43,799 nt of DNA from a virus. Made by a program: the position numbers and the translations under genes. This document shows positions 564-43,799 of the stretch, piece by piece; position 1 is the stretch's first letter; each line of letters starts with the position of its first letter. The DNA lies in IMG/VR virus record IMGVR_UViG_3300046516_000409, positions 1 through 43,799 of that record; one strand, written 5' to 3'. The notes below the pieces were generated by a model. It was given only the letters and a program-made list of their open reading frames with translations. It searched no databases and was not told where the DNA came from.

Positions 564-605
564 ATGCTCCTCCTCCGTATTCTACTGTCTAACCTGTTTT
601 CGCTC

Positions 606-635: not shown

Positions 636-665
636 CCAGCACCCCCGACCGACGAGGCCCACGCC

Positions 666-3447: not shown

Positions 3448-3463
3448 AAAAGGGAGAAAAGTC

Positions 3464-3610
3464 ATGTTTTTTCGCAATAACCCCACGTCCGTGACGGAGA
3501 AGGCTCCGGAAAAGCCGATTCCAGCCCCAAAAACCCCTGAAAAACACGAAAAACACGATGAAAAGACCGAAAAACACCCCCACCGCGACATGCACGAGAG
3601 CAAAAAATGA
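3464..3610 (+). CDS. Small Lys/Glu/Pro/His-rich protein, 48 aa
   Basis: Very short low-complexity protein. After FFRNNP it is a run of KPE/EKH repeats (PEKP, PEKHEKHDEKTEKHPH) and is probably disordered. A good ribosome site (AGGGAG at 3451-3456) stands 7 bases before ATG 3464, and the TGA overlaps the next ATG as ATGA, which argues for real translation. No function is evident; it may be a linker-like or charge-binding peptide. It opens the small-gene cassette between terL and the portal. Confidence 0.6.
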   Translation: MFFRNNPTSVTEKAPEKPIPAPKTPEKHEKHDEKTEKHPHRDMHESKK

Positions 3611-4529: not shown

Positions 4530-4717
4530 CCCCGTTCAGGCCCGAACCCATCAAGACGACCAAGCTATGGACCGGCGTCTGCCGCGACGGCCCGTGGAAA
4601 GGCCTGCCATTGACGGCGGGATCGCGCTTCGTCTGCGCCCCCGACGGCAATGAATACTGCAATGACGGGACCGGACACTGGAACTGGGTCGAGCTACACC
4701 ACGAGGGCAAGAAATGA
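4526..4717 (+). CDS. Small hypothetical protein related to the next gene's N-terminus, 63 aa
   Basis: Short protein starting at GTG 4526 (GTGA overlap with the Tad2-like stop). The core G-V-C-x-x-G-P-x(5)-L-T-x(20-30)-W-x-W-V/L is shared with the first 60 residues of the following protein, so these are tandem paralogous domains, about 40 residues with several Cys, Gly and Trp. I do not know the family. Its TGA overlaps the next ATG. A GTG start is chosen from the overlap and because the reading frame upstream is only a shadow of the Tad2-like gene. Confidence 0.6.
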   Translation: MTPFRPEPIKTTKLWTGVCRDGPWKGLPLTAGSRFVCAPDGNEYCNDGTGHWNWVELHHEGKK

Positions 4718-5172
4718 GCAAAATCCTCAATGGCGTTTGCGTCGGCGGTCCCCTGAATGACCGGGGCCTGACCTGGGACAAGGACGTGAAAGTGCTGCTG
4801 GCGTCGAACAACGACGGCCACGCCGGCGAATACCACTATGACCACGCAGCCACCAACAAGTGGATCTGGCTTGACGAAGGCAAGGAACAAACCATGAGCA
4901 GAGCAGCCGAAGAGCAGACCATACCCCGAATTACGCCCGAAATCATCGATAAGCGCATCGTGCGGGTGAAATACTATCAATTTCCCGACTCCACCGTCAT
5001 GATCTGCGCCATCGAACTGACCAATGGCTACCATGTCATTGGCGAGGCCGGCTGCTCTTCTCCGCTCACTTTTGACGAAACCATCGCCAGGCGGATCTCC
5101 TTCGACGACGCCCGCCGCAAGATCTGGCCGCTGGAGGGCTACGTCCTCCGCAACGAACTGAAGGGGCTATGA
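4714..5172 (+). CDS. N4 Gp49/Sf6 gp66-family protein with duplicated N-terminal domain
   Basis: Two-part protein of 152 residues. Residues 1-59 repeat the small domain of the upstream gene. Residues about 75-150 match the Gp49 family (named after phage N4 Gp49 and Sf6 gene 66): hallmarks are K-Y-Y-x-F, the strand-turn T-N-G-Y-H-V-I-G, a C-S-S-P-L-T-F-D step and the ending W-P-L-E-G-Y-V-L. The family is common in phages and has no established biochemical role that I know. An internal ATG at 4894 with AAGGA upstream could start a separate 92-residue Gp49-only product, so this may be two proteins made from one frame. The stop overlaps the next start as ATGA. Confidence 0.75.
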   Translation: MSKILNGVCVGGPLNDRGLTWDKDVKVLLASNNDGHAGEYHYDHAATNKWIWLDEGKEQTMSRAAEEQTIPRITPEIIDKRIVRVKYYQFPDSTVMICAIELTNGYHVIGEAGCSSPLTFDETIARRISFDDARRKIWPLEGYVLRNELKGL

Positions 5173-5312
5173 CGCCGCTCGATATCGCCATTTCGGTTTT
5201 CATCCTGCTGCTTGTCAGCCGCCTCTCCTACAACAAGGGGCGGCGCGACGAGCGCGCCGCTCATTTCGAGGATTACGAAAATGAGTTTCATGATGAAGGC
5301 CACTGTCGATAA
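5169..5312 (+). CDS. Single-span membrane micro-protein, 47 aa
   Basis: Reads MTPLDIAISVFILLLVSRLS then a charged tail (KGRRDERAAHFEDYENEFHD). Residues about 5-18 form one hydrophobic span, and the basic residues after it suggest a cytoplasmic C-terminus. ATG 5169 overlaps the previous stop as ATGA, and the 3' end overlaps the next gene by 32 bases in another frame. Size and form are like many phage inner-membrane peptides; it could be an accessory lysis, exclusion or inhibition factor, but no specific role is shown. Confidence 0.6.
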   Translation: MTPLDIAISVFILLLVSRLSYNKGRRDERAAHFEDYENEFHDEGHCR

Positions 5313-5496
5313 TCACCCGCTGCCTGGCGGGCGACCCTCACACCTGTTTGACGTCCATGTCGAGGGCGGCGATCCGCCGGCCAAGGCCGAATACACCATC
5401 ATCGCCAACGATGAGGATGAAGCGGCCCGCGAGGGCATGAAACGGTTCCAAAAGGCCCATGACAAGACGCCGATGCCCGACATTGGCGATATTTGA
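5281..5496 (+). CDS. Small hypothetical protein, 71 aa
   Basis: Unrecognised acidic protein. A beta-like N-terminal half (HLFDVHVEGGDPPAKAEYTI) is followed by an amphipathic helix (DEDEAAREGMKRFQKAHD). GAGG lies 9 bases ahead of ATG 5281, which favours this start over 5212. It overlaps the membrane micro-protein at its start and is the last member of the terL-portal cassette; 44 bases separate it from the portal gene. Confidence 0.65.
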   Translation: MSFMMKATVDNHPLPGGRPSHLFDVHVEGGDPPAKAEYTIIANDEDEAAREGMKRFQKAHDKTPMPDIGDI

Positions 5497-5540
5497 AATA
5501 GGCGTTATAGTCCCTTCTGCTTTTCCAGAGAGGATGCGCC

Positions 5541-8075: not shown

Positions 8076-10288
8076 ACGAGCGCGCGAAAGCCCTTGGCTT
8101 CGATCCGTCGCAGACGTGGTTTCACGGCTCAACTAAGGATCTGCCGGCTTTCGCCGCCAAGCGCGCTCCGCGCAGCGAGCAAATGGGCCTGGAAGGCGTT
8201 CACCTTGCGCAAAATCCGGATTTTGCCTCCCATTACGCCGAAGGGCCTGGCGGCAACGTCACGCCAGTTCATGTGCGCGGCAATATTCTCGACGCCACCC
8301 AGCTTATCCCCGAAGGCGGCGAGCATCACGCCATTCTCGATAAGCTGCTGAAGGGAACAGGCCGCAAGCCATACTGGAACTCTGATGAGCAGGGGCGTCG
8401 ATTCGCCCCGCCGCTTCAGGGTCATATCGACGCCGTCAGCCCGCAAAAGGCCAAGCGCGTCATCCAGGAACACGGCTACGACGGCGTCAAATACGATGCT
8501 CGATACGGATCATTGCAGCCTGGAGGCCGCAGCGCGAGCATTTCAAACAAAAGCCCCGCAGTGGTGATGTTCGACCCATCGAATATCCGGGCCAGGACTG
8601 CACAATTCGACCCCCAGCAAGCAGGGAGCGCGGAACTAATGGCATCGAGAGGCGGTAAGGCGATCCACTCTGCGCTCCTGACGGCCAAGAGCCTTTATGA
8701 CAAGCTGCCGCATGTCGTCGGCGGCGGGGCGCCGATGGCCAAGGGCGGCGCTGCGCTGGCGCCGATTCCCCAGATCATCATGCCGGGCGATCACCCGGCC
8801 CGCATCGACACCCGGCTGGCGACCGGGGCCAAGCCGCTCGATCTGGGGCCAGGGCCGCGCACCGTCAACATGGCTGCGTTGCGGGCGACGCCGGCGCTGT
8901 TCGACAAGAACGTCGATATCCTGCGGCACTACCCGAATGTTTCGAAAAGGGCGGCGAAGCTGTCGAACCCGGATATGGCCGAGCATTTCATCAATCACGT
9001 CAAGGACAACCTGCTGTGGCTGCACGATCAGGTGCCCAACGAAACCCGGCAGCGGTCCAAATTGTGGTACGACGGCGCCAACAAGCTGGCCAAGGAGTGG
9101 GCGCAAAAATACGGCGTCTCGGAGGCGTCCGCCGCCGGCGCGCTGGCCGCGCTGTCGCCGCAGAAGGACTGGTTTCAGAACGTGTCGCTGGCCGAGCGCG
9201 TCCTGCATGCGATGAAGGGGCGCGGCAATAACGCATATCATGGTGAAACCTTTTCGCCTGAAATGGAGGGCACCTATCGCGGCCTGGACAAGCTGGCCAC
9301 CGAGAAGAACGAGCCAATCTTCCAGGCGATCAGGGGCAAGTCGCTGGGCGACATCGACGACATGAAGCACATTCCCGGCGACGAGCGCGCGGTCATGAAG
9401 GCGCTGTGGATCCGGATGCACGATCAGACCCACGGCGATCCCGGCTACAAGATCGCCACGCCGGAAGGTCATTTTGGCGAGGTCGCCCGGAACGCCGACG
9501 GATCGCCATCGAGGGCGGGCTGGGGTTCGCTGGGCGAAATCGGCAAGGCGGTGCAGGCCATCGAGAGCAATGGCGATCCGACCTTCATGAACCGCCTGAT
9601 GGGCGAGCGCCACAAGGTTCGCAATTTCTACAATAACATCCTCGATCCCAACTCCCAGCACGGCGACGTCACCATCGACACCCATGCGGTCGCCGCCGGC
9701 CTGCTGCGCGCGCTGTCGGGCAATTCGCTTGAGGTGGCGCACAATTTCAGCAACTACGCCGGCAAGGGCGTTCCCGGCGCCGGCGGCTCCAACGCCACCG
9801 GCGTGAACGGAACCTATCCGCTCTACGCCGACGCCTATCGCCAAGCCGCCAAAGAGCGCGGTATACTGCCGCGCGAAATGCAATCGATTACGTGGGAGGC
9901 GATCAGAGGATTGTTCCCCGACACCTTCAAAACTGATAAAAACAACGCCCATATCGACAGCATCTGGAACGACTACAAGAACGGAAAGAAGGGAATCGAC
10001 GATGTCCGCAAAGAAATCCACGACTTCGCGGGGGGCATCCGGCCACCGGAGTGGCACGACACCTCTGGAACGCCTGATGCACCGGTTCGGGGTGCCAGTG
10101 GACCGGGACTCGTACCTGGCCCTGGATCACGCGGGCCAGCCCCCCAAGGAATTATCGGCGGAACAGGAAATGGACCTCCCGGAGCACCTGCGCCGCAAGC
10201 ACCCCGGCAGTCGGGGCTGATCCTGCCGCCAGGTTATGCCTGCGGCGGCATGATCGACAAAGCATTGGCCGCGACACGGCCCCGGTAA
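8072..10288 (+). CDS. Large protein with ADP-ribosyltransferase-like N-terminus and phage domain
   Basis: The 738-residue protein overlaps the portal gene by ATGA. Residues about 14-176 resemble the ART domain of phage polyvalent proteins: W-F-H-G-S (His18), a central G-V-H-L-A-Q-N-P-D-F-A-S-H-Y (Tyr55) and a closing strand ending V-V-M-F-D-P-S-N-I-R. His and Tyr fit an H-Y-E-type NAD site; the third acid is not certain. Residues about 270-560 carry a second conserved phage domain with AALSPQKDWFQNVSLAE and DVTIDTHAVAAGLL. I know this pattern from phage and plasmid proteins (I believe DUF7178-like) but not its function. After about 640 it becomes Pro/Gly-rich, where another gene overlaps in a different frame, and it ends GGMIDKALAATRPR. 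Location suggests a virion protein that may be injected. Confidence 0.75.
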   Translation: MNERAKALGFDPSQTWFHGSTKDLPAFAAKRAPRSEQMGLEGVHLAQNPDFASHYAEGPGGNVTPVHVRGNILDATQLIPEGGEHHAILDKLLKGTGRKPYWNSDEQGRRFAPPLQGHIDAVSPQKAKRVIQEHGYDGVKYDARYGSLQPGGRSASISNKSPAVVMFDPSNIRARTAQFDPQQAGSAELMASRGGKAIHSALLTAKSLYDKLPHVVGGGAPMAKGGAALAPIPQIIMPGDHPARIDTRLATGAKPLDLGPGPRTVNMAALRATPALFDKNVDILRHYPNVSKRAAKLSNPDMAEHFINHVKDNLLWLHDQVPNETRQRSKLWYDGANKLAKEWAQKYGVSEASAAGALAALSPQKDWFQNVSLAERVLHAMKGRGNNAYHGETFSPEMEGTYRGLDKLATEKNEPIFQAIRGKSLGDIDDMKHIPGDERAVMKALWIRMHDQTHGDPGYKIATPEGHFGEVARNADGSPSRAGWGSLGEIGKAVQAIESNGDPTFMNRLMGERHKVRNFYNNILDPNSQHGDVTIDTHAVAAGLLRALSGNSLEVAHNFSNYAGKGVPGAGGSNATGVNGTYPLYADAYRQAAKERGILPREMQSITWEAIRGLFPDTFKTDKNNAHIDSIWNDYKNGKKGIDDVRKEIHDFAGGIRPPEWHDTSGTPDAPVRGASGPGLVPGPGSRGPAPQGIIGGTGNGPPGAPAPQAPRQSGLILPPGYACGGMIDKALAATRPR
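10002..10220 (+). CDS. Nested out-of-frame small phage protein, 72 aa
   Basis: A 72-residue frame lies entirely inside the 3' end of the large ART-containing gene, in another frame. The product looks like a real protein: LERLMHRFGVPVDRDSYLAL, then D-H-A-G-Q-P-P-K-E-L-S-A-E-Q-E-M-D-L-P-E-H-L-R, a pattern of short acidic phage proteins that often accompany head genes in alphaproteobacterial phages. AAGGGA lies 7 bases before its ATG. In the same interval the host frame turns into low-complexity Pro/Gly sequence, as expected when a second frame carries the constraint. The host frame resumes a plausible C-terminus after this gene ends. Dual coding is the best reading; a sequencing frameshift is the alternative. 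Confidence 0.6.
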   Translation: MSAKKSTTSRGASGHRSGTTPLERLMHRFGVPVDRDSYLALDHAGQPPKELSAEQEMDLPEHLRRKHPGSRG

Positions 10289-10323
10289 CCTGATACGGTG
10301 ATTTAGCTAGAAGGATGACGCCG

Positions 10324-10578
10324 ATGTGTTTCTCGCTCGCCTGGCTTGAGAATTTGCTCATTTGGGTTGTCATCGTCGGCGCCCTGATCGCCATCCTCCA
10401 GCTTTTCGTGCCTTGGGTGCTGGCCCAAGTCGGGGATCTGGGCGGCGCCGTCGGCGTCATCCTGCAAATCGTCAAAATTATCGTCTGGGCGGTGATCGTG
10501 ATCTTCGTGATCTATGTTGTGTTCGATCTGATTCAGTGCCTGATTGGCTCCGGTGGCTTGAAGCTACCCAAGTCATAA
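10324..10578 (+). CDS. Small two-span membrane protein, 84 aa
   Basis: Integral membrane protein with two hydrophobic segments, about residues 11-33 (LLIWVVIVGALIAILQLFVP) and about 45-72 (VGVILQIVKIIVWAVIVIFV and on), and a short basic end. I start it at ATG 10324 because AGAAGG (10309-10314) is 9 bases upstream; ATG 10315 directly touches that site. It sits far from the endolysin, so holin is only one option; a membrane partner of DNA entry or an accessory factor is equally possible. A weak 6-base-pair hairpin (10583-10600) lies between it and the next gene. Confidence 0.7.
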   Translation: MCFSLAWLENLLIWVVIVGALIAILQLFVPWVLAQVGDLGGAVGVILQIVKIIVWAVIVIFVIYVVFDLIQCLIGSGGLKLPKS

Positions 10579-10620
10579 CCCCACGGCTCCGGTAAGCCGT
10601 AAACCGAGAGGACCATATCG

Positions 10621-11901
10621 ATGTCCGAACAAGCCAAAACATACCGCGCCGCGATGCGGGCTAAGGCCGAGCGTTTGGGGACGGCCACGTCCGCAGGCAA
10701 AGTCGATTGCAGCGATTTCGGCCCTGTCGAGCAGGATCCAATTCACGCCGATAAGCAGGAGGGCCTGCGACCCGTCTCCAGGCGAGCGTATAAGAGCGGC
10801 GGCGCCGTCATGGGCGCGGCGGCTTTCAAGCATGGCGGGCGCGTTGCGCGCAAGGGCGGGGGCGCGGCCAACGCCAGTTCCATGTTCGGCAACGCCATCT
10901 ACAATAGCGACGTCAAGGAAGCCAACGAGAAGCGCGACGGCTACGTCAAGCGTGAAGGCGGCATGAAGAAAGGCGGCAGGACCGGCAGATTTGGCGGCGG
11001 CGGCAATGGCCCGATTGGCGGCCAGACTGCTGTCAACAATCAGGCGGCTGCGAACGCCATGCAGGCCATCGACGCCAACAATAGAGTCGGCGGCAACGTG
11101 CCGACCAACGCCTTGGGCGTTTCGGCGGGCAGTGGCAGCGGCCATATGTTCGGCATGGCGAAGGGCGGTCACCCGCACAAGGCCGAAGACGAGAAATGCG
11201 CCAAGAAGCTGGTCGCACACCACAAGGCCGACGGCGGACCGATCCCGTCGCCGGCGGACGCCGGTCCGCCTCCCGGCCCGCCCGAAGCTTCACCTTCCGG
11301 AACGGACCAGGATTCGGGCAAGCTGGATGCGCTGATCAGCGCGCTGGAGCACCAGCATAAAAAGTCGAAGAAGCACAAGGCGCCGCCGATGCCGCCTCCG
11401 GGTGCTGATGATGAGGCCGGCCCGCCCCCCGATGAGCAGGCCGGCCCGCCTCCAGGCCTCGGCGCCAAGCGCGGCGGCAAGGCCCGCAAGGAAGGCGGCG
11501 GCGTCTACGCCCCCAACATCAAGCTCGGCCCGCGCGACGGTTACGCCAAGGGCGGCAAGACCAAGGGCAGGACGAACATCAATATTGTCATTGGGCAACC
11601 TGGCGGCGCCTCTCCTCCCGATGCTGGCGGACCTCCTCCCCTGGCCGGGCCGCCGCCGGGGCCGGGGGCGGTTCCTGTGCCGCCTCCCGCGCCCCCGCCC
11701 CCGCCGATGGCTGGACCTCCAGGCATGCAGGGACCGCCGGGCGCGCCCCCGCCGATGCCGATGCCGCCTCCGGGCGGGCCGATGGGCCGCAAGCATGGCG
11801 GTCGAGCCTATCCGATTGACGATGGATCGGGCGGCGGCAAAGGCCGTCTGCAGAAGATCAGGTCTTATGGCCTGGTTCCAGCCAAAGGAGGTGGGAAGTG
11901 A
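10621..11901 (+). CDS. Low-complexity Gly/Lys/Pro-rich virion-type protein
   Basis: The first 60 residues look ordered and conserved-like (E-Q-A-K-T-Y-R-A-A-M-R-A-K-A-E-R-L, then RPVSRRAYKSGG). The rest, to residue 426, is basic Gly-rich sequence punctuated by repeats of the type K-H-G-G-R, A-K-G-G-K, K-S-G-G-A, plus Pro-rich stretches (GPPPDEQAGPPPG, a long P-P-P run near 340-390). The C-terminal G-R-L-Q-K-I-R-S-Y-G-L is again conserved-looking. Probably an intrinsically disordered nucleic-acid-binding or scaffold-like protein of the head region. The function is unknown. The next gene overlaps its stop by GTGA. Confidence 0.7.
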   Translation: MSEQAKTYRAAMRAKAERLGTATSAGKVDCSDFGPVEQDPIHADKQEGLRPVSRRAYKSGGAVMGAAAFKHGGRVARKGGGAANASSMFGNAIYNSDVKEANEKRDGYVKREGGMKKGGRTGRFGGGGNGPIGGQTAVNNQAAANAMQAIDANNRVGGNVPTNALGVSAGSGSGHMFGMAKGGHPHKAEDEKCAKKLVAHHKADGGPIPSPADAGPPPGPPEASPSGTDQDSGKLDALISALEHQHKKSKKHKAPPMPPPGADDEAGPPPDEQAGPPPGLGAKRGGKARKEGGGVYAPNIKLGPRDGYAKGGKTKGRTNINIVIGQPGGASPPDAGGPPPLAGPPPGPGAVPVPPPAPPPPPMAGPPGMQGPPGAPPPMPMPPPGGPMGRKHGGRAYPIDDGSGGGKGRLQKIRSYGLVPAKGGGK

Positions 11902-12167
11902 GCTTCGAAAAGTCTGTTGTCGATCACGCGCTTGTTGTCGCTTTGGGGATCCTCCTCCTGCTGTTCGCTTTTGCCGGCTTTGTCATTTCGGCTCGTGCTC
12001 AGTCTATCGAGATTGGGCCAGGCGGCGTTGCGGTAAGTCCTGGCCGCGAGCGCGGCTGGGGCGGGCAGTGCGAGGAACTGCGGCGCGCTTGCGAATACAA
12101 GGAAGAGCGCGGCGAGGAAGGTTACGGCAACTGCCGTCGCTATCGCCGCTTCTGCCAAGGCAGGTAA
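11898..12167 (+). CDS. Secreted or membrane-anchored Cys-rich protein, 89 aa
   Basis: Starts at GTG 11898, overlapping the previous TGA, behind a very strong AAAGGAGGTG (11884-11893, 4 bases before it). Residues about 10-34 form a signal peptide or anchor (VVALGILLLLFAFAGFVIS, then ARAQ, a good signal peptidase site). The mature part is short and basic with four cysteines: C-x6-C, then about 14 residues, then C-x5-C. Two disulfides in the periplasm are plausible. Such a protein within a head gene block is unexpected; envelope-directed roles such as superinfection exclusion are possible but not shown. Confidence 0.7.
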   Translation: MSFEKSVVDHALVVALGILLLLFAFAGFVISARAQSIEIGPGGVAVSPGRERGWGGQCEELRRACEYKEERGEEGYGNCRRYRRFCQGR

Positions 12168-12185
12168 TCAAATAGGAGAAAGTTG

Positions 12186-12875
12186 ATGGTGCTTCGTCAT
12201 GTTGTAATTCGTGGAGTGGCCGAGATCGGTGACGTGGCCGGCTCGGTCGATCCCGGCTTTGGGCGCCCTGGCTTTGGCGGTCATCCCGATCAGGGCCTTC
12301 CCGGCTACGGCCATCCCGATCAGGATTTGCCTGGCTACGGACATCCCGATCAGGGTTTGCCTGGTCACGGTCATCCCGATCACGATCTTCCCGGCAGGCG
12401 CCCGCGTCCCGATCAGGGCCTGCCCGGCTACGGTCATCCGGATCAAGGATTGCCTGGCTACGGTCATCCCGACAACAGCCTGCCCGGCTTGCCGGTTTAT
12501 CCCTCACAGGGTCCAATTCTTCCGGCCCCTCCCGGCCATCCTATTCCCGTGCCGCGCATTCCCGTGGTGCAAGCCATCGCGCTGCCTGAAGGCGAAACGC
12601 TGCCGACTGGCGCGCCCCATCGCCCCGGCAGGATTTGCGTGGTGGTTGACGGCGAAACCAAGGCGGTTGGCTGGCTGCAGGGTTCGGATGATCTTCCGGT
12701 CGCAGAGCCGAAAGGCGATGCGCCTGTGCCTGGCGGTCATTGGGTCGCGGTCGAAGCCTTCCCGCAGGCGCGACCGAAAAAGTGCCCCGATGGCGGCGAA
12801 GGCGTCGGCAAGACTGGTTTTGCCTGGGTGTTTGAGGTGAAGGCCGACTGGGGAACCCAGCCGACGCCGGTCTGA
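12186..12875 (+). CDS. Protein with tandem 10-residue His-Pro-Asp repeats
   Basis: The 229-residue protein has a short N-terminal segment (MVLRHVVIRGVAEIGDVAG), then seven tandem copies of a unit close to GYGHPDQGLP (about residues 29-101), a Pro-rich linker, and a C-terminal globular domain (about 135-229) with strands such as GRICVVVDGETKAVGW and GGHWVAVEAFP. ATG 12186 is preferred over TTG 12183; AGGAGA lies 6 bases upstream. The repeat domain should form an extended, His-rich rod that may bind metal. It ends the gene run before a strong hairpin. A surface or head-decorating protein is possible; the family is not one I can name. Confidence 0.7.
   Translation: MVLRHVVIRGVAEIGDVAGSVDPGFGRPGFGGHPDQGLPGYGHPDQDLPGYGHPDQGLPGHGHPDHDLPGRRPRPDQGLPGYGHPDQGLPGYGHPDNSLPGLPVYPSQGPILPAPPGHPIPVPRIPVVQAIALPEGETLPTGAPHRPGRICVVVDGETKAVGWLQGSDDLPVAEPKGDAPVPGGHWVAVEAFPQARPKKCPDGGEGVGKTGFAWVFEVKADWGTQPTPV
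12270..12488 (+). repeat. Seven in-frame ~30-base tandem repeats
   Basis: Units of 30 bases (33 in two) encode near-copies of GYGHPDQGLP. Bases vary mostly at third positions, with substitutions such as DQDLP, DHDLP and DNSLP, so the array is diverged and under protein-level constraint rather than freshly expanded. The array is entirely within the preceding coding region. Confidence 0.85.
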
Positions 12876-12882
12876 AAACACA

Positions 12883-12919
12883 GAGGGCCGCTTCCAGTAC
12901 ATCCGTGGAAGCGGCCCTC
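12883..12919. terminator. Strong terminator-like hairpin
   Basis: GAGGGCCGCTTCC (12883-12895) pairs perfectly with GGAAGCGGCCCTC (12907-12919) over an 11-base loop, 8 bases after the stop of the repeat protein. The rightward 3' side has no T-run, while the leftward side continues into a short T-rich TGTGTTTTC. It may end transcription, partly block it, or protect the RNA 3' end. The stem is certain; function is inferred. Confidence 0.6.
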
Positions 12920-12980
12920 ATACCCTCGGTCGTCACCTTGAGCTTGTCTTACATCAGGAACAAATCAGGTTCAAGCCCTA

Positions 12981-13193
12981 ATGCAGACTTTCAAAAGCGT
13001 TTTTGCCGAAGAACTGAAGAAGCTCCTGCGCGAGCAGATCGAAGCTCAAAAGAACGACCTCGCATACGGCGCCAGCATGACGACCTTCGAAGCCTATCGC
13101 GAGGCGGTTGGCGTCATACGCGGCCTCAACAACGCCATCGACACCGTCGATGAGGCCGAGCAGAAGGCCAACGACCGCGAGCGCGGCCTCTAA
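12981..13193 (+). CDS. Small helical hypothetical protein, 70 aa
   Basis: Almost entirely alpha-helical, highly charged protein (FAEELKKLLREQIEAQKNDL, later T-V-D-E-A-E-Q-K-A-N-D-R-E-R). It resembles short coiled-coil proteins found near head genes of tailed phages, and its pattern of a conserved Y-R-E-A-V-G-V-I-R-G-L looks selected. No family assignment. The ribosome site is weak. It is the first gene after the 12883-12919 hairpin, so it may begin a new transcript or be read through. Confidence 0.7.
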   Translation: MQTFKSVFAEELKKLLREQIEAQKNDLAYGASMTTFEAYREAVGVIRGLNNAIDTVDEAEQKANDRERGL

Positions 13194-13250
13194 ATCCTAT
13201 TGTCAGCGCACTGACAGTGTGCGAGTAATTGCGTGTCACAGGAGACGCGC

Positions 13251-13637
13251 ATGGCCTTTGCCGAAATGCAACATGAACTGGAACCTCGCCTGAAGCTTCT
13301 GGATGAGCTTGGTGATCTGTCAGGGGTCGAACTTTTCCACAATCAGTTGCTGGTCGCGGTCTACATCAGGCCCGAAAAGACCAAGAGCGGCCTGTTCCTG
13401 GCCCAGCAGACCCTCAACGAGGATCGTTTCCAGTCCAAACTGGGCCTCGTCGTCAAGAAAGGCCCCCAGGCTTTCATCAGCGGCGGCGAATGGCAGTTCC
13501 CTGACATCGAACTGCATGACTGGATCCTGTTTCGCCCCTCGGATGGCTGGAACATCACCGTCAGCGGCGTTCTGTGCCGCATCCTGACCGATACGGCTGT
13601 CAAGGGGCGCATCAGCAGCCCCGATCTCATTTGGTGA
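13251..13637 (+). CDS. GroES-like (co-chaperonin fold) phage protein
   Basis: Resembles co-chaperonin 10. The core includes V-E-L-F-H-N-Q-L-L-V-A-V, a K-T-K-S-G-L-F-L step after R-P-E (compare the K-S-x-G-G-I of GroES), and a terminal strand pair with V-K-G-R-I-S-S-P-D-L. At 128 residues it is a little longer than cellular GroES (about 97). ATG 13251 is chosen because AGGAGA (13240-13245) stands 5 bases upstream; GTG 13233 is the alternative. T4 Gp31 is the known precedent of a phage co-chaperonin needed to fold the capsid protein with host GroEL; a similar job here is inferred from the position two genes ahead of the capsid cluster. A 6-bp hairpin (13201-13216) lies upstream. Confidence 0.7.
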   Translation: MAFAEMQHELEPRLKLLDELGDLSGVELFHNQLLVAVYIRPEKTKSGLFLAQQTLNEDRFQSKLGLVVKKGPQAFISGGEWQFPDIELHDWILFRPSDGWNITVSGVLCRILTDTAVKGRISSPDLIW

Positions 13638-13642
13638 GCGAC

Positions 13643-14488
13643 ATGGCGAAAGATCCGAATAGCATCCCGGCCTTCGATCCGAACACCGATTGGGAGCATG
13701 GCGGCAAGGAAGAGCGCGATCCGCTGGTCGAACTGCGGGCGCAACTCGACCGCGAGCGCGCCGCGCGCATCGAGGCGGAACGCCGCGCCAACGAATACGC
13801 GACCACCGCACACGGCGCGCAGGTCGAAGTGGCCGACAACGAGCTTAAACTGGTGATCAGCGCCATCGAGCGGGTCAAGGAGCACACCAACGCCCTGAAG
13901 GCCGCTTACGCTGAAGCGATGCGCAATGGCGATTTTGACAACGCCGCTGAATTTCAGTCGCAGCTTGGCGACAATTCGGCCCGCCTGCTGCAGCTTGAAA
14001 ACGGCAAGGCGTCAATGGAGGCGCAGCCGGCGCCGGCGCCGCCGCAGCCGATCAAGACGATCATCGATCCCGTCGAGGAATTGGCGAGCCAGTTGACGGC
14101 GAAATCCGCCGCCTGGGTCCGCGCGCATCCGGAATGCGCCCGCGACAAGAAGCTTTACGCCAAGATGGTCGCCGCCCACAACATCACGGTCGCTCGCGAC
14201 ATCGATCCCGACACGGACGATTATTTTCGCTCGGTCGAGGCGCTCGTCTACGACAGGCCCGCAGGCCAAGATTTGGACACCGGCGCCGACGATCCGCAGG
14301 CCATGTCCGCCAAGGCGGCGCCGCAGCGTGAATCGGCCCCGCCGGCTGCGCCTGTCAGCCGTGGGTCGAGCGGCAGGAGCGCCGTGCTGACGCCGCTTGA
14401 GCGCGAATACGCCGAGATCTCTGGCATGTCCGAGCAGGAATACGCCAAGGCCAAAGAGGAAATGCGCAAAGCTGGGCGCATGCATTGA
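13643..14488 (+). CDS. Putative scaffolding protein
   Basis: 281 residues, strongly helical. Residues about 25-110 form a predicted coiled coil (LVELRAQLDRERAARIEAER and on), followed by a Pro/Ala linker, a second helical domain (about 140-200) and a short basic C-terminal end with E-Y-A-K-A-K-E-E-M-R-K-A. This architecture and its place shortly before the major capsid gene fit an internal scaffold that directs procapsid assembly, where a basic C-terminus would contact the capsid. There is no sequence signature that proves it. GTG 13634, overlapping the previous stop as GTGA, is an alternative start adding three residues. Confidence 0.6.
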   Translation: MAKDPNSIPAFDPNTDWEHGGKEERDPLVELRAQLDRERAARIEAERRANEYATTAHGAQVEVADNELKLVISAIERVKEHTNALKAAYAEAMRNGDFDNAAEFQSQLGDNSARLLQLENGKASMEAQPAPAPPQPIKTIIDPVEELASQLTAKSAAWVRAHPECARDKKLYAKMVAAHNITVARDIDPDTDDYFRSVEALVYDRPAGQDLDTGADDPQAMSAKAAPQRESAPPAAPVSRGSSGRSAVLTPLEREYAEISGMSEQEYAKAKEEMRKAGRMH

Positions 14489-14498
14489 GGAAAAGATA

Positions 14499-15080
14499 AT
14501 GGTCAACCGTCCGCCTCCGCAGCGTTTCACCACCCAAGAGCCGAGAGTTGAAGAGGCCATGCAGGCGCCTTCTTTCATTGAGCGCCCGCCGCTTCGCCAG
14601 CCGGTCGAAACCTCGATGGACCGCGCCGCCCGGCGCACCTTGGAATTGCGCGGCCACTTCACTAACGGCGTTCTCGACGAGGGCGCCGATGAATTTTACA
14701 TCAACCCCGCGATCATTCCGGAAGGGTGGTCATACGAGTGGAAGCTGTTCTCGATCCTCAACGAAGAGCAGTCGTCCTATCAGGTCACTCTGGCCCGCAC
14801 GGGCTGGGAGCCGGTGCCGTCGGATCGACATCCCGAATTGATGCCTCGCGGCACTAAGGAAAAGACTGTAATGCGGCGCGGCATGCAGCTTATGGAGCGC
14901 CCGCTCGAAATCACGCTGGAGGCCAAGCAGCTTGAGCGCGACAAGGCCCGCCGCCAGGTTCGCATCAAGGAAGAGCAGCTTACTGCGGCGCCTCCGGGCC
15001 AGTTTGGGCGCGACAACAAGGGTGAACCCTTGACCCGTCTCGGCAAGACTTACGAGGCCATGCCGGTGCCAAATAATTGA
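14499..15080 (+). CDS. Hypothetical head-region protein, 193 aa
   Basis: Starts at ATG 14499 with GAGG upstream. N-terminal part is Pro-rich and disordered-looking. The middle (about 65-120) has a conserved-looking G-A-D-E-F-Y-I-N-P-A-I-I-P-E-G-W-S-Y-E-W and a strand-rich G-W-E-P-V-P segment. The C-terminal third is a charged helix (E-A-K-Q-L-E-R-D-K-A-R-R-Q-V-R). The pattern I-P-x-G-W-x-Y-x-W-K is one I have seen in uncharacterised phage head-region proteins; no function is known to me. It is the last gene before the two terminator-like hairpins. Confidence 0.7.
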   Translation: MVNRPPPQRFTTQEPRVEEAMQAPSFIERPPLRQPVETSMDRAARRTLELRGHFTNGVLDEGADEFYINPAIIPEGWSYEWKLFSILNEEQSSYQVTLARTGWEPVPSDRHPELMPRGTKEKTVMRRGMQLMERPLEITLEAKQLERDKARRQVRIKEEQLTAAPPGQFGRDNKGEPLTRLGKTYEAMPVPNN

Positions 15081-15105
15081 CGGCGCTTGACGGCGCCGTA
15101 TTTTT
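15080..15105 (+). terminator. Intrinsic terminator 1 before capsid genes
   Basis: ACGGCGC (15080-15086) pairs with GCGCCGT (15093-15099) around TTGACG, followed by a T-run at 15101-15105. GC-rich stem plus T-run on the rightward strand is the classic rho-independent form, and the left arm begins at the last base of the preceding stop codon. Confidence 0.75.
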
Positions 15106-15126
15106 GGATGTACAAAACGTGTACTC

Positions 15127-15157
15127 GCTTCTCCCCGCTGTGAGAAGCCGTATTTTT
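15127..15157 (+). terminator. Terminator-like hairpin 2 before capsid genes
   Basis: GCTTCTC (15127-15133) pairs with GAGAAGC (15142-15148) around an 8-base loop; CCG TATTTTT follows, with T at 15153-15157. The element CCGTATTTTT is the same one that follows hairpin 1, so the two may have arisen by duplication. The T-run is 4 bases away from the stem, so this is weaker than hairpin 1. Confidence 0.55.
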
Positions 15158-15218
15158 CGGACCTCCCCTAGCCCCCGGTGTGGCATAGCAGGTCTTCCTT
15201 GAAAGAGGAGGGTGAGCT

Positions 15219-38491: not shown

Positions 38492-40351
38492 ATGACTGAA
38501 AAGTTTGACCCCGTTCCAGTGTACAACAAAAACGAGTCCCTTTATGACAACGCGACGCCCGCGACTGGGGGAGCCGCCGCCGCCGCCACCACCGAGCCTC
38601 TCAAAGTTCCGGTGTACAATAGGGACGAACCGCTCGTTGCATCCACGCAGCCGAAGCAGCCGGAAGCGAAGCCCGACTACGCCAATATGGGCTGGTGGGA
38701 TGTCCTGGGCAGAGGCGCCAAGGCGTTGCCTGGCGACATGGGCGACGTCGCTATGGCGCTTCCACACGCCGTCGCGAACTACGGCGATACGTGGGAGGGC
38801 GTAAAGTCGCTGGGGCGCGGCGCTGCTGGCGCGACGGGCCTTTACGAGGGGGCCAGCCCACAGGATAAAGCGGCGTTCAGCGGCGCTGTGGCGCCCTATA
38901 CTTCAGCTTGGAACGCCGTCTCCAGCGGCGACACGGCAGGCCTGAAGGAACAGATTGCCGAGCACCCGGCCAACCTTGCACTGTCATATGCGCCTGTCGC
39001 CGGCGCCGCCGGCGCTGGCTTGCGCGGGCTGTCGGGTGCGGCACAAGCAGGCAGCGCCGTCTCGCGCGGTCTTGAGATCGCCGGCAACGCCGCGAGCAAG
39101 ACCGGCCAGGCGCTAAATATGTTCGACCCGGTGCAGGCTGGCATGGCGGGAGTGACCAAGTTGGGCGGCCCAGTGGCGAAAGCGACGATGGCTGGGCTGT
39201 CTGACAAGCCATACAATGCTTACACCAAGGGCTTTGAAGCCGCCAAGGAGGGCGGCCAGGCCCTCAATGATTTCAAATCGTTTGCGACTGGCGATGCAGG
39301 TCCGGTGGATCTATCAACCCGCGTTCGCAATGCCATGAAGGCGAAGAGGGACGAAGAAATCAACACATGGGCGCAGTCGAAACAAGGCGTCGCGGCACAA
39401 AACAGGGGTCCGGTGGACTTGACTGATGCGCTGGACACTATTCGAGCTAATGCTCGGAAGATGGGAGATCCATCTTTAGCTCTCGACCCAGCCGCGCATG
39501 ATGCAATGTTTAGGGCATATCAAGCTGTTCTCGCGCATGATGCGCTGCCGCCAGGGGCGCCCGGAGCGCAACTTCTGGGCATCGATAAGCTAAAGCAGCG
39601 GCTGCACGATGCTGCAGAAGCCGCGCCCAATCCTGAAGCGCGGACTGCGGTCCATAGCGTACGCGATGCAGTTCGCGATGCCTTGATAGCACATGCGCCG
39701 GAATACGAGCCTCTGATGTCTGGCTGGCAGACGATGCAGGATAATTTCAACACCCTCGAAAAGTCACTTGGGACTGGGTCTAAGACTGCAGCCACAAGTG
39801 AGATGGCCAAGTTCCTCAAGGCGCAGAAAACACCCGGCGGTCGTGATTTGATCGACCAGTTAGCGCAATATGATCGCACTATCCCGCATGCGGTGGCTGG
39901 GGCCACCTTCGCGGAAGGGAGTAAGCTGGGCAGGGCGCCGAACATTGCCGAATTGGGTATGCTGGCGCACTCGATCTACTCAGGGAACCCCGTCACGGGC
40001 CTTATTGGAGGGGCCGGTGCTTTATTTGGGAACGTGCCTCCGCTACAGCGAACAGTTCCGATTCTTGCCGGTCGCGCGGCGAGGCTTGGCGAGCCGTTGC
40101 AAACTGTGTATCAGGGCGCCCAGCAGTCTGTGCTTCCGGAAGAGCGGGGCGATAACGCCGTTCGTGAATTGACGGTTCACCCAAGGCGCGCCAGCGGCGG
40201 CGCCGTGAAAGGCCACCAGCATTTGGTCGACCGGCTATTCGCCGCGCACGAGCGCGCCAAGCGCGAAGAAAAGGCGCATACTGCGGGCATCCTGCACCAG
40301 CCAGACGAGGCGGTTGCAAAAGCTCTCCATGTCGCGCAGGCGGCTATCTAA
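38492..40351 (+). CDS. Putative internal/ejection protein with C-terminal GG-motif, 619 aa
   Basis: Repeated PVPVYNKNE- and KVPVYNRDE-type segments lie in the first 50 residues. An Ala/Gly-rich helical region (about 130-250) with N-L-A-L-S-Y-A-P-V-A-G-A-A-G-A-G may be membrane-active. A long helical region (270-460) follows, then a Gly/Leu-rich part (T-G-L-I-G-G-A-G-A-L-F-G). The C-terminus has R-R-A-S-G-G-A-V-K-G-H-Q-H-L-V-D-R-L-F and ends with charged helix. The same style of ending occurs on other virion proteins here. Probably an ejected protein; function not shown. Confidence 0.65.
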   Translation: MTEKFDPVPVYNKNESLYDNATPATGGAAAAATTEPLKVPVYNRDEPLVASTQPKQPEAKPDYANMGWWDVLGRGAKALPGDMGDVAMALPHAVANYGDTWEGVKSLGRGAAGATGLYEGASPQDKAAFSGAVAPYTSAWNAVSSGDTAGLKEQIAEHPANLALSYAPVAGAAGAGLRGLSGAAQAGSAVSRGLEIAGNAASKTGQALNMFDPVQAGMAGVTKLGGPVAKATMAGLSDKPYNAYTKGFEAAKEGGQALNDFKSFATGDAGPVDLSTRVRNAMKAKRDEEINTWAQSKQGVAAQNRGPVDLTDALDTIRANARKMGDPSLALDPAAHDAMFRAYQAVLAHDALPPGAPGAQLLGIDKLKQRLHDAAEAAPNPEARTAVHSVRDAVRDALIAHAPEYEPLMSGWQTMQDNFNTLEKSLGTGSKTAATSEMAKFLKAQKTPGGRDLIDQLAQYDRTIPHAVAGATFAEGSKLGRAPNIAELGMLAHSIYSGNPVTGLIGGAGALFGNVPPLQRTVPILAGRAARLGEPLQTVYQGAQQSVLPEERGDNAVRELTVHPRRASGGAVKGHQHLVDRLFAAHERAKREEKAHTAGILHQPDEAVAKALHVAQAAI

Positions 40352-40361
40352 GGATCTGGTC

Positions 40362-41387
40362 ATGGTTGAACTTACGCCAGGCAAAGGCCTTAACGTACCG
40401 GCTGCGGGAACGCCGAACTGGGATGTGCCGGTAAACACCGACTGGCGCTCCATCGATCAGGCCATTGCAGGAGTGCAATATGTCAACGCCGCTGCCTTTA
40501 CCGGCAACGTCTATTTGACCAATGCGTACCCAACCGGATCAACCGATCCGGCCACCTCGTTGTCCTGCCTGTGCTCCACGATTGTCATTTACGGAGCTAT
40601 TGCAGGGGCGGTTAATTTAGTGTTTCCCGATGGTCTTGTGGGCCACTGGATCATCAGGAACGCAACCAGCGGGAATTTTGCAGTAAATTGCGTCACGTCC
40701 ACTGGCACCTATAATTATATGCCTGTTCCGCAGGGCGTCTTATCTCACGTTCATAGCGACGGCCACACTTTTTACTTTGTCGGCGCGAGCGGCACCACGT
40801 CACAGCTTGCGATGATTGGTGAGATCAAAGTCTGGTCTGGCGGCTATGTGCCGCCGCAGTGGATGGCTTGCGATGGCCGCTGGCTCGATAGGTACGCTAA
40901 CGGAGGGCAGTATACGCCGCTTTATAACGTCTTTGGCTTCGCCTATGGCGGCAATGGCTCCAATGCATTCGCCATTCCCGATTTGCGAGGGCGCGTGGTG
41001 GCGGGCGCAGACAACATGGGGACGCTAGGCAGCGCCAATCGCCTGAACGGGTGGGGGATGACGGCTGTCGGCGGCGTGGCGAATCTGGCCTTGACCACCG
41101 ATCAGTTGCCATCGCACACGCATTATGACTACGGCCACGGGCACAACCTGGCCCAGAACCCGCATCATCATTTCACCAATGGCCCCGACAGCAGCGTGGG
41201 CGGACAGCCAGGCGTGGGCTACAGCGGTTCTGGCTGGCCGTGGCACGATAAACAGTCGAGCGACGAGACTGTCCCGCTGGGGGTCTACGCCGGCTACGCC
41301 AGCCTCACGAACACCGGCAACGGCAGCGCCTTCTCGATCCTGCAGCCGACGCTCGTCCTGCAACACATCATCTACACCGGCGTCTAG
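40362..41387 (+). CDS. Tail fibre/tip with phage tail-collar domain
   Basis: 341 residues from ATG 40362 (AAGGA at the end of the previous gene). The C-terminal half is a phage tail-collar domain: G-E-I-K-V-W-S-G-G-Y-V-P-P-Q-W-M-A-C-D-G, then Y-T-P-L-Y-N-V-F-G, then N-A-F-A-I-P-D-L-R-G-R-V-V-A-G. The following H-T-H-Y-D-Y-G-H-G-H-N and H-H-H-F segment is His-rich and could bind metal ions, as in collar-type fibre tips. The N-terminal half is beta-rich. It may be a second adsorption fibre or tail tip. It converges with the GcrA-like gene; the two stop codons share CTAG. Confidence 0.82.
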   Translation: MVELTPGKGLNVPAAGTPNWDVPVNTDWRSIDQAIAGVQYVNAAAFTGNVYLTNAYPTGSTDPATSLSCLCSTIVIYGAIAGAVNLVFPDGLVGHWIIRNATSGNFAVNCVTSTGTYNYMPVPQGVLSHVHSDGHTFYFVGASGTTSQLAMIGEIKVWSGGYVPPQWMACDGRWLDRYANGGQYTPLYNVFGFAYGGNGSNAFAIPDLRGRVVAGADNMGTLGSANRLNGWGMTAVGGVANLALTTDQLPSHTHYDYGHGHNLAQNPHHHFTNGPDSSVGGQPGVGYSGSGWPWHDKQSSDETVPLGVYAGYASLTNTGNGSAFSILQPTLVLQHIIYTGV

Positions 41388-41794
41388 GCGGCTCTCGTCT
41401 GGTAACAGGCGATCATGTGCTTGCGGCAGTAGATGGTTATGCCTGGCCTCTCGACCGTCTCGCAGCAGTAGGTCACGCCTTCTGGCGTGTGCGCATCTCC
41501 GAACGGATATCGGCAGGTGAAGGGCGTCAGGCCCATGATCGTCCGATCCTGGACAGGCGGCGCAATAGGCGCGGCAATTGGTTTCATTTTGGGCGTCCTC
41601 GGCGGTCTGGGTGGCCTTGGCTTTTTGGGCGCCGGCACAGCGCCCCCGGTCCGACTGACGTCGAAGCCGCGAGCGCGGAGCCTGGATATGACGCCGATGA
41701 TCGCGTTCTTGGTTTTCCCCAGCTTTGCGCCAGCCTGCGTTCCTGTCAGACCGGCCTTCCACAGGGCCAGGATCGCGATCTCGTCGGTGTTCAT
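41384..41794 (-). CDS. GcrA-like cell-cycle regulator
   Basis: 136 residues from ATG 41794. The N-terminal helix-turn-helix (D-E-I-A-I-L-A-L-W-K-A-G-L-T-G-T-Q-A-G-A, K-T-K-N-A-I-I-G-V-I-S-R-L) and the C-terminal block with C-R-Y-P-F-G-D, Y-C-C-E-T and Y-C-R-K-H-M-I-A-C-Y-Q match GcrA. GcrA binds sigma70 and acts at promoters methylated at GANTC by CcrM in alphaproteobacteria. A phage copy might redirect host transcription or time its own genes; that is inference. Family proteins start close to the helix-turn-helix, which favours ATG 41794, one base after the upstream stop. ATG 41815 and 41830 give longer versions. Linker rich in Pro/Lys/Arg. Confidence 0.78.
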   Translation of the reverse strand: MNTDEIAILALWKAGLTGTQAGAKLGKTKNAIIGVISRLRARGFDVSRTGGAVPAPKKPRPPRPPRTPKMKPIAAPIAPPVQDRTIMGLTPFTCRYPFGDAHTPEGVTYCCETVERPGITIYCRKHMIACYQTRAA

Positions 41795-41795
41795 T

Positions 41796-42026
41796 TCAAT
41801 TCGTTTGTGCGTCATCTGCCTTTTTCTCATATCTCACGCCGCAAAATGGGCAGTATGTCGGAACGATCAGCGGCATCTTGCTGCGCATGCTGGTGATGAT
41901 TTTCTCGCTCGCGATCAGCGTGGGGATCACGATCAGATGACCGTCGACGACACGGAAGGCGGTGGTCAGCCTGGCGTTGTTGTCGGCAATCATCTTGTTC
42001 ATGTCGTCGGCGCAATTGCAGGTCAT
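41796..42026 (-). CDS. Small zinc-ribbon-like protein, 76 aa
   Basis: Begins M-T-C-N-C-A-D-D-M-N-K and ends with Y-C-P-F-C-G-V-R-Y-E-K. The two Cys-x-Cys/Cys-x-x-Cys pairs, far apart, suggest a zinc-bound fold. Start ATG 42026 is preferred: GGAAGG lies 4 bases upstream and it overlaps the upstream gene's stop as ATGA. Longer readings to 42203 shadow the secreted micro-protein. It lies in the leftward early-type block. A small regulatory or structural zinc protein is likely. Confidence 0.65.
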   Translation of the reverse strand: MTCNCADDMNKMIADNNARLTTAFRVVDGHLIVIPTLIASEKIITSMRSKMPLIVPTYCPFCGVRYEKKADDAQTN

Positions 42027-42184
42027 GGCGCCTTCCATGTCGCGACGGGGCGCGGGTTGAAAAGCATCGAGGCCTCCACCGTGGCATTGTGACGGGCCTT
42101 GACGCGATGCAAGACGTAGGGTGCGGCGAGCGTCGAGGCGCTCCACATTGCTACAGCCAAGCTTAAGCTTAATTTCTTCACCAT
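42023..42184 (-). CDS. Secreted micro-protein with signal peptide, 53 aa
   Basis: Reads MVKKLSLSLAVAMWSASTLA then A-P-Y-V and a basic mature part. Two lysines, a hydrophobic core and an A-x-A-like end form a good Sec signal, cleaved about residue 20-21. The mature part is only about 33 residues. It overlaps neighbours on both sides, including ATGA with the zinc-ribbon gene. Envelope-directed action is implied; the target is unknown. Confidence 0.6.
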   Translation of the reverse strand: MVKKLSLSLAVAMWSASTLAAPYVLHRVKARHNATVEASMLFNPRPVATWKAP

Positions 42185-42261
42185 AGCGCCACCAGCATCG
42201 CAAAGGCGCACACCCCTGATACGGCGCCGATCACATACCCTTCCCAAAAGTCACCGCTCAT
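42178..42261 (-). CDS. 27-residue single-span membrane peptide
   Basis: M-S-G-D-F-W-E-G-Y-V-I-G-A-V-S-G-V-C-A-F then A-M-L-V-A-L-W. GGAGG stands 6 bases before the ATG on the minus strand, an unusually good site for so small a frame, and the peptide is almost wholly one transmembrane span. It overlaps the next gene by 7 bases and the previous by 11. Function unknown. Confidence 0.55.
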   Translation of the reverse strand: MSGDFWEGYVIGAVSGVCAFAMLVALW

Positions 42262-42628
42262 TTTGATCCTCCACTTTTTCAGTGATTCGAGCATTTTCAA
42301 TTTTCTTGTCGACGATTGCCAGGATCTCCGCGTAATTCTGCTGGATCTCGACGCGCAGCGCCCTGTAAGCGTCCGCCTTGCTAGCGTACCAGGGACCGCC
42401 GGTGCCCTGGGAATCGGTCCTGTCGGTCCTGCTGTAGCTGTGGGCGCCGGCCCTGAAGCAGCCGACGCCAACTTCCCGATTGTACTGGTTGAAAGCCCAG
42501 CCGATCTGGAGCAGTTCGCTGGGGACCAGCCTGAACAGCGTAAAATCGCGAAAGCGCATGGCGCGCGCTTCGTCCAATTGTTTGACGATGAGGTCAAACG
42601 CCGCTTTTTCGGCCTTGGTCATGGCCAT
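42251..42628 (-). CDS. Hypothetical protein, 125 aa
   Basis: Charged protein with helical ends (M-T-K-A-E-K-A-A-F-D-L-I-V-K-Q-L-D-E near the start; E-I-Q-Q-N-Y-A-E-I-L-A-I-V-D near the end) and a central loop with G-V-G-C-F-R-A-G-A-H-S-Y-S-R-T. The start overlaps the MazG-like stop by one base (TGATG). It may act with or after the MazG-like protein because of this coupling. Not identified. Confidence 0.65.
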   Translation of the reverse strand: MAMTKAEKAAFDLIVKQLDEARAMRFRDFTLFRLVPSELLQIGWAFNQYNREVGVGCFRAGAHSYSRTDRTDSQGTGGPWYASKADAYRALRVEIQQNYAEILAIVDKKIENARITEKVEDQNER

Positions 42629-43086
42629 CAGCGCAGCCTCGCTTTGAACCCCAGCTTTTTGCTGGTGGCGTTGAACTTATCGACGGTCGCCCGCTTCAAA
42701 TCGATGCCGGCTTTGATGGCGATCAGCGAAACGTAGACTTCCACGTCAGCCAGTTCTGTCGCCAGATCGGCAACGGTGGCGCGCGAGCCATCGAGGCCAA
42801 GGCGCTCGCGCTCCAATTTCTTGATGACATTGCAGGCTTCGCCCATTTCGCCGGCGGCGGCGTTGCCGAAGTAGGACAGGTCGAGCTTGTCGCTGTTCGT
42901 CCACTCAAGCTGGCGGGCGATGTTGGCCTCTTCCAGCGTGTCGTAATAGATGACAGGCTGGGCCTTTCTGGGTATGGGCTGCACCTTTTCGAGCACCCCA
43001 GTAATCAAGTTGTGGGCGACTATTTGATCCATGCAAGCTTTATGAGCAAGCAACACGCTCATGGCGTCGATTTCTTCAGGGGTCAT
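42628..43086 (-). CDS. MazG-like nucleotide pyrophosphohydrolase
   Basis: All-alpha NTP pyrophosphatase of 152 residues. It shows the MazG metal motif E-x-x-E ... E-x-x-D: Glu80 and Glu83 in A-G-E-M-G-E-A, and Glu111 and Asp114 in E-L-A-D-V-E-V-Y, 27 residues between. Such enzymes hydrolyse NTPs or dNTPs to monophosphate and PPi; phage members have been linked to removal of (p)ppGpp or unusual nucleotides, which is not proven here. The first 70 residues are an extra N-terminal region. Leftward block with GcrA-like and membrane genes. Confidence 0.8.
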   Translation of the reverse strand: MTPEEIDAMSVLLAHKACMDQIVAHNLITGVLEKVQPIPRKAQPVIYYDTLEEANIARQLEWTNSDKLDLSYFGNAAAGEMGEACNVIKKLERERLGLDGSRATVADLATELADVEVYVSLIAIKAGIDLKRATVDKFNATSKKLGFKARLR

Positions 43087-43134: not shown

Positions 43135-43799
43135 TCAGACGGGTTGACGAAAAGCGACGATGCGGCGGATCGACACCATGCCGTAGCCGACATTGTGCAG
43201 GTGGTTGCCCGACAGCAGCAGGATGCTGTTGGTTTTCGGGTAGACTTTGGCGACGATGCCAATGTGATGCGGCAGGACGGCGACGGCGCCAACCCTGGGC
43301 GCGCTGGGGCGGCCATAGTGGGCGTAGGAGACGGCGGCAAGCGACCCCAGGCGGGAATAGCCGGCCTCGCGCAGCCACAGACCTACGGAGGCCGCGCACC
43401 AGGGGCCATTGAAGCCGGTGAAATTGCCGCCGCCGACGTAACGCTCCGCGACCTGCAGGAGCCGCGTGTCGCCGCCCAGGGACGCCGTGGGCGTGTAGAA
43501 GCGAAATCCGAATAGGCTGAAGCCCTGATCGGGTTCAGGGGCCACTGCCGCCGCCGCGCGCGCATAAATGCGGCGCTGATAGTGATGGTGGTGACGATGC
43601 GCGACAGGGCGCCAACGATGGTACTCTCGGCGGGGTTCGCGCCAGTGAGGCTTCAGGCTTTCGAAGGATTTTTCTTGCGCCTCCATGCCGAAAATGCGCC
43701 GGATGTTGAAATTTTGACTGGACGTTTGCGGCGGCGGGTCCACACTAGCAAATGCCGGCGAGGAACACGCCACGAGTAGAGCCGTGACGGCGAGCAGCT
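43135..43799 (-). CDS. CHAP/NlpC-like wall hydrolase, exported, 5' end cut by window
   Basis: Partial: the frame stays open to the right edge, where L-L-A-V-T-A-L-L-V-A-C-S-S-P-A-F-A reads as the end of a signal peptide with a possible lipobox (L-V-A-C), so the true start lies beyond 43799. A GTG at 43773 is probably not the start. The catalytic domain, of CHAP or NlpC/P60 type (similar to the TIGR02594 pattern), shows F-N-G-P-W-C-A-A-S-V (Cys near 43397), L-P-H-H-I-G-I-V-A-K (His) and L-L-L-S-G-N-H-L-H-N. A linker with H-R-H-H-H-H-Y precedes it. Role: peptidase on peptidoglycan in the envelope. Confidence 0.78.
   Translation of the reverse strand, partial: LLAVTALLVACSSPAFASVDPPPQTSSQNFNIRRIFGMEAQEKSFESLKPHWREPRREYHRWRPVAHRHHHHYQRRIYARAAAAVAPEPDQGFSLFGFRFYTPTASLGGDTRLLQVAERYVGGGNFTGFNGPWCAASVGLWLREAGYSRLGSLAAVSYAHYGRPSAPRVGAVAVLPHHIGIVAKVYPKTNSILLLSGNHLHNVGYGMVSIRRIVAFRQPV

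Follow-up and report, generated by a model that had tools for sequence, protein, structure and literature searches.

Location and phage context of the gcrA-like gene

In the window, by which we mean the whole 43,799-nucleotide stretch of the IMG/VR virus record IMGVR_UViG_3300046516_000409 that was analyzed, a gcrA-like open reading frame (ORF) of 136 amino acids was located at positions 41384-41794 on the minus strand. The encoded protein matched the Pfam family GcrA (PF07750) with 46.9 bits (E 5e-12) against a curated cut-off of 26.9 bits, which is far beyond chance, and this was the only match to the family in the 43.8-kb record. The profile search confirmed the original prediction, made from the sequence alone, of a GcrA-like regulator at this position, and the cut-off was also exceeded in nine of nine related viral contigs found with the window protein. 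A further match was to the phage family phrog_16311, which has no name, and the NCBIfam GcrA equivalog NF050816 matched weakly, with 29.1 bits against the more than 280 bits asked of an equivalog. Since one profile was exceeded and the other fell so far short, the protein is best classified, on profile scores, as a member of the PF07750 family and not as an ortholog of cellular GcrA. In the control set, Sulfolobus acidocaldarius also exceeded the PF07750 cut-off, which is unexpected for an alphaproteobacterial family.

The best start of the ORF is the ATG at 41794 because the stop codon of the upstream ORF lies one base before it (TGA-A-ATG), it corresponds to Met1 of Caulobacter crescentus GcrA in the alignment, it is common to all relatives (the ATGs further upstream, at 41815 and 41830, are unusable in some), and the gene call based on codon usage was exactly 41384-41794. 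Between the window gene and its nearest variant, dN/dS was approximately 0.26 (0.08/0.32), and the gene is under purifying selection in both halves.

The window is a phage fragment with an Sf6-like TerS, TerL, an SU10-like portal protein, a match to a major head protein, and a tail collar protein. The gcrA-like gene is situated between the tail collar gene and MazG-like and CHAP-like genes, and the contig also carries the TerL, portal, and capsid genes, so that the phage location originally proposed for it holds. It forms the end of a leftward gene cluster and is convergent with the tail collar gene (40314-41387, plus strand, PF07484), which overlaps its stop codon by 4 bases. Upstream on the minus strand are the ORF that ends one base before the gcrA start, which is of unknown function and has a C-terminal CPFC motif (41796-42203), and, within the same cluster, a conserved phage ORF (42251-42628, phrog_28248), a MazG-like pyrophosphatase gene (42628-43086, weak matches to PF03819 and phrog_229), and a gene for a CHAP-like/TIGR02594 protein (43135-43773, sub-cut-off matches). 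The cluster runs past the end of the window in relatives.

The nine related IMG/VR contigs carry the gcrA-like gene in three other variants that are 77-85% identical, and a more distant relative (MazG 67% and collar protein 29% identical) has a GcrA homologue in the same place, adjoining the collar gene. Seventeen contigs with related MazG-like or TerL genes gave a PF07750 match in seven cases, six of them above the cut-off; these contigs are fragments, and a missing match says little. A 138-kb contig, IMGVR_UViG_3300046559_000446, contains two copies of TerL and two gcrA variants, which lie 69 kb apart. The spacing of the two variants suggests a genome of approximately 69 kb, and assembly probably merged two related phage genomes into this contig. 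The genome half beyond the window, as seen in the relative G003, encodes a DEAD/ResIII helicase, a PD-(D/E)XK nuclease, and a family A DNA polymerase; no integrase was found. A 334-aa reverse ORF of G003 encodes a C5-cytosine DNA methylase (PF00145, 125 bits) and not an adenine GANTC methylase.

Several other features of the window were noted. Tad2-like domains (PF11195, Thoeris anti-defence 2-like; 50 and 80 bits) occur in two adjacent plus-strand genes at 3607-4194 and 4191-4529, and this tandem pair may encode counter-defence proteins. A 738-aa protein encoded after the portal gene (8072-10288, plus strand) has a DUF7178 match and a sub-cut-off N-terminal match to ART-PolyVal (ADP-ribosyltransferase), and is possibly a polyvalent, injected enzyme. 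The gene at 12216-12875 (plus strand) contains a 30-base tandem repeat. Positions 1-15212 are more than 99.9% identical to another contig (L157, L161), to which the 3' part is approximately 88-90% identical, and this sharp mosaic reflects either recent recombination or the assembly of mixed strains.

Predicted structure of the window protein

C. crescentus GcrA has a domain for DNA binding (residues 1-45) and one for sigma2 binding (108-173), with an unstructured linker between them (46-107), and promotes open-complex formation at methylated promoters (PMC7403470); its mechanism is established (PMC7403470, PMC12340889). The same layout of an N-terminal helix-turn-helix (HTH), a linker, and a C-terminal Cys/His domain was recovered for the window protein with AlphaFold2 and Foldseek. 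The AlphaFold2 model, for which the input was 38 window and locus sequences, showed two confident domains (pLDDT about 90-96), namely, a three-helix DNA-binding domain over residues 3-41 (pLDDT ~95) and a C-terminal domain (~90), joined by a low-confidence linker. The predicted DNA-binding HTH covers residues 1-48 (41651-41794, minus strand), with helices at 3-13, 18-25, and 29-41, and is followed by a Pro/Lys/Arg-rich linker (residues 49-84; 41543-41650, minus strand) and a predicted sigma-interacting domain (residues 85-136; 41387-41542, minus strand) with the pattern C-x-Y-P-x-G-D ... Y-C ... Y-C-x-x-H.

The top Foldseek match in the PDB was 5yix_B, the GcrA sigma-interacting domain (SID) with sigma2 (probability 1.00, target TM 0.73), to which the C-terminal domain corresponds; 7ye2_G from the GcrA-RNA polymerase complex was also among the top matches, followed by NarL/DosR-type HTH domains. 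Each of these PDB matches spans one small domain, and the E-values are accordingly weak (0.1 and up); the probability and TM values are therefore the more informative measures. Among viral models (BFVD), the six best fold matches were all named GcrA cell cycle regulator and came from uncultured Caudovirales phages (E 4e-6 to 6e-4), and a profile combining cellular and phage members of the family matched full-length GcrA (7ye1_G) with 3e-54. The fold, together with the retained scaffold of the C-terminal domain, makes sigma70 binding by the window protein plausible.

Compared with C. crescentus GcrA (5yiu/5yiv for the DNA-binding domain, 5yix for SID-sigma2, and 7ye1/7ye2 for the RNA polymerase complex), the window protein is alike in domain order, the HTH and sigma scaffolds, the linker, and the predicted folds. 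It differs in its length (136 versus 173 aa), a shorter turn before the recognition helix, and the substitutions described below.

Sequence divergence and phylogenetic position

The recognition helix of the window protein is TKNAIIGVISRL, and its counterpart in cellular GcrA is TRNAVIGKVHRL; in an alignment with 80 sequences of cellular GcrA, the window protein has TKNAIIGVISRLRARGF where the cellular helix reads TRNAVIGKVHRLGLSGR. Lys39 was found in 119 and His41 in 118 of 119 cellular sequences (two sets), and all four phage variants, that of the window included, have Val and Ser at these positions. The larger cellular set was partly fetched with patterns that included NAVIGKVH, which covers most of the comparison set; the few sequences selected without it (39) agree, with Lys39 in 39/39 and His41 in 38/39. 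Positions 39 and 41 would be expected to contact DNA, as they lie within the recognition helix. The window protein keeps Asn34, Arg42, and the helix scaffold and has Lys in place of Arg33. Thirteen positions (L9, W12, G15, A31, G34, R38, L39, C94, P97, C110, Y122, C123, and H126) were invariant in 38 cellular and phage sequences.

Among viral homologues fetched by the sigma domain only (n=65), Lys39 was present in 43 and His41 in 29, and variation in the reading helix is therefore common among phage GcrA proteins. Some host genes may be present in IMG/VR proviruses, a bias towards higher rather than lower apparent conservation in the viral set.

The sigma domain of the window protein retains the Cys, His, Pro, Gly, Asp, and Tyr scaffold, with Tyr in place of the near-invariant Trp of the cellular CxWP motif (W112). 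The DNA-binding domain scored 25.9 bits against a cellular median of 104 (range 74-109) and the sigma domain 25.0 bits against a median of 88, such that each whole domain has approximately one quarter of the cellular bit score. A reading in which the sigma domain is conserved and the DNA domain lost was considered too strong and was dropped, as the scores show both to be about equally diverged.

Identity to cellular sequences was 23-35%, and the tree branch to all cellular GcrA was long, at 4.8-6.5 changes per site. When genome contigs were scanned with only the phage family, no relative emerged, the best score among 385 alphaproteobacterial genomes was 51 bits, and no close cellular relative of the window protein was found. 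The first tree linked the phage clade to phiCbK and Azospirillum-type sequences; because the phage branch is very long and AU tests rejected neither a placement with the SKNAVVGKAHRL group nor one with Caulobacteraceae (p ~0.5 for both), this link was treated as possible long-branch attraction, and the assignment of a donor or host order from the tree was abandoned. The nearest named TerL relatives include Paracoccus, Roseobacter, and Rhizobium phages, RHph_X3_2 among them. The proposal that the gene indicates an alphaproteobacterial host stands, with the PF07750 match, the depletion of GANTC described below, and the TerL relatives in agreement; judged from these sequence features, the host would be an alphaproteobacterium.

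GANTC sites and DNA methylases

The window contains 52 GANTC sites against approximately 161 expected, a threefold depletion (ratio 0.32) that is the lowest among the 16 palindromic xyNy'x' motifs, and the ratio in relatives was 0.23-0.34. This depletion might fit a phage of a CcrM-bearing host. MW202675.1, the nearest, albeit distant, named phage relative, has no PF07750 match and contains two GANTC sites in 61 kb against approximately 205 expected; this near-absence, a single comparison, could be due to restriction avoidance.

None of the 52 sites is intergenic, with 4.7% of the window being intergenic, and of 20 sites in the remainder of a relative, 4 were intergenic versus 14% for permuted motifs, which is not a clear excess. 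In a relative, one GANTC site lay close to a putative promoter of the gene cluster; the available copies are identical apart from one at 88%. A promoter scan near the gcrA-like gene gave nothing above background. A previous survey reported GcrA sites without positional bias in alphaproteobacterial phages (PMC9437464). A CcrM-family N6/N4 methylase (PF01555) was found neither in the window nor in the nine relatives. The phage itself shows no sign of GANTC-based promoters. The original prediction had linked the protein to CcrM-methylated GANTC sites and suggested mapping GANTC near phage promoters and looking for a phage GANTC methylase outside the window; the depletion of the motif, its absence from intergenic regions of the window, the lack of an intergenic excess in the relative, the lack of a PF01555 match, and the replacement of Lys39 and His41 leave this link unsupported.

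Discussion

Phage-encoded GcrA is already known, and the window protein adds a strongly diverged member. phiCbK-like phages encode GcrA, which has been hypothesized to alter the host replicative state (gp222 of phiCbK; Gill et al., 2012, PMC3556154), and GcrA-like genes were later described in Agrobacterium phage Atu_ph08 (PMC6630229), brucellaphage Y17 (PMC11836647), Sinorhizobium meliloti phiLM21-like prophages (PMC12429752), and a coral-associated virus (PMC11309003); in Rhizobium phage RHph_X2_24, one is annotated as GcrA (QWY83191). Similar to the window protein, phiCbK gp222 is a virus-encoded PF07750 protein with both domains and an altered recognition helix (RTKSAVCGKADRL); in contrast, it scores 88.5 bits against PF07750 and retains Lys39 and the CRWPYGDP motif, and tblastn with the window protein against the phage collection did not find it. 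Atu_ph08, RHph_X2_24, Y17, and the phiLM21-like elements are likewise phages or prophages of alphaproteobacteria with GcrA-like genes. However, the sequence of the RHph_X2_24 protein belongs to a different lineage, and Atu_ph08 gp5 was reported to be 90% identical to an Agrobacterium protein, whereas the window protein has no close cellular relative among those found. The best whole-protein fold matches, the GcrA-like proteins of uncultured Caudovirales in BFVD (A0A6J7XBQ7, A0A6J5NEH0, and others), share 22-31% identity with it.

More than 100 further GcrA-like loci were found in IMG/VR; pattern scans confirmed 141 loci by an alignment pattern and 84 by canonical patterns (overlapping sets), and 74 were found by the sigma domain. 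Some of the viral proteins (L257, L292, L293, L295, L298, L299, and similar loci) have a near-canonical DNA-binding domain and no recognizable sigma-interacting domain, and proteins of this kind are candidate competitors of host GcrA.

Regarding the function of the window protein, its sequence and model make it moderately probable that the protein is an activator that docks on sigma70 and acts on promoter DNA different from that of cellular GcrA. The C-terminal domain would dock on domain 2 of host sigma70, the N-terminal HTH would contact promoter DNA immediately downstream of the -35 element, and the flexible linker would join the two, which would make it easier for host RNA polymerase to open a particular set of promoters. 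Given the changes in the recognition helix at positions fixed in cellular GcrA and the lack of an intergenic GANTC excess in the phage, the DNA target would most likely be a sequence other than GANTC or be bound with weaker methyl dependence. The targets may be phage promoters or selected host promoters, reached through host RNA polymerase, since no match to a single-subunit phage RNA polymerase (PF00940) was found, a weak negative because no control matched in that search either. T4 AsiA and Thermus phage Gp39 (PMC7403470) offer a functional analogy only, as small phage proteins that redirect host RNA polymerase through sigma; they target sigma region 4, whereas GcrA-type proteins target sigma2, and the sequences are unrelated. 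Against the activator reading, both domains have diverged, and sigma docking could be altered or lost. It is conceivable, albeit doubtful, that phage GcrA homologues in general, including the window lineage, are sigma70-docking activators in which the reading helix has repeatedly been retargeted away from methylated GANTC, and which serve as one-piece sigma2 cofactors that redirect host RNA polymerase to phage promoters.

The protein may instead imitate host GcrA by binding CcrM-methylated GANTC in host promoters and driving the host S-phase programme, as was proposed for gp222 of phiCbK and phiCbK-like phages (PMC3556154). Family and architecture are the same as those of GcrA, Asn34, Arg42, and the helix scaffold are kept, with Lys for Arg33, and the depletion of GANTC in the phage would be irrelevant for targets on the host chromosome; however, the two residues fixed in cellular GcrA have become Val and Ser, the DNA-binding domain reaches 26 bits versus 74-109, and neither the phage nor its relatives provide a CcrM-family GANTC methylase, which together render this explanation unlikely. 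More unlikely still is a competitor or sigma decoy that occupies sigma2 or GcrA sites without activation and thereby partially shuts down host transcription. Both domains have diverged with their scaffolds kept, and 17 of 74 canonical-pattern phage loci have a good DNA-binding domain with little or no recognizable sigma domain, and phages therefore seem to take the halves of GcrA apart; nevertheless, the window protein has both halves, linked and both under purifying selection, and its sequence holds nothing that separates an activator from a decoy. That an ordinary host gene was recently caught by chance and has no phage-specific role is very improbable, since, despite the cellular origin of the family and the frequency of accessory host genes in phages, this reading is contradicted by the long branch and low identity to all cellular GcrA, by a place conserved in relatives whose collar proteins are as little as 29% identical, and by the low dN/dS.

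GcrA belongs to the small number of transcription factors that are reported to read DNA methylation while acting as sigma cofactors. The diverse viral versions, in which the scaffold is kept and the reading helix varied, represent a natural mutational series for the residues that specify methyl-GANTC, and the set bears on whether viruses steer host RNA polymerase with sigma2 cofactors. The gcrA-like gene also points an otherwise unassigned phage contig to an alphaproteobacterial host.
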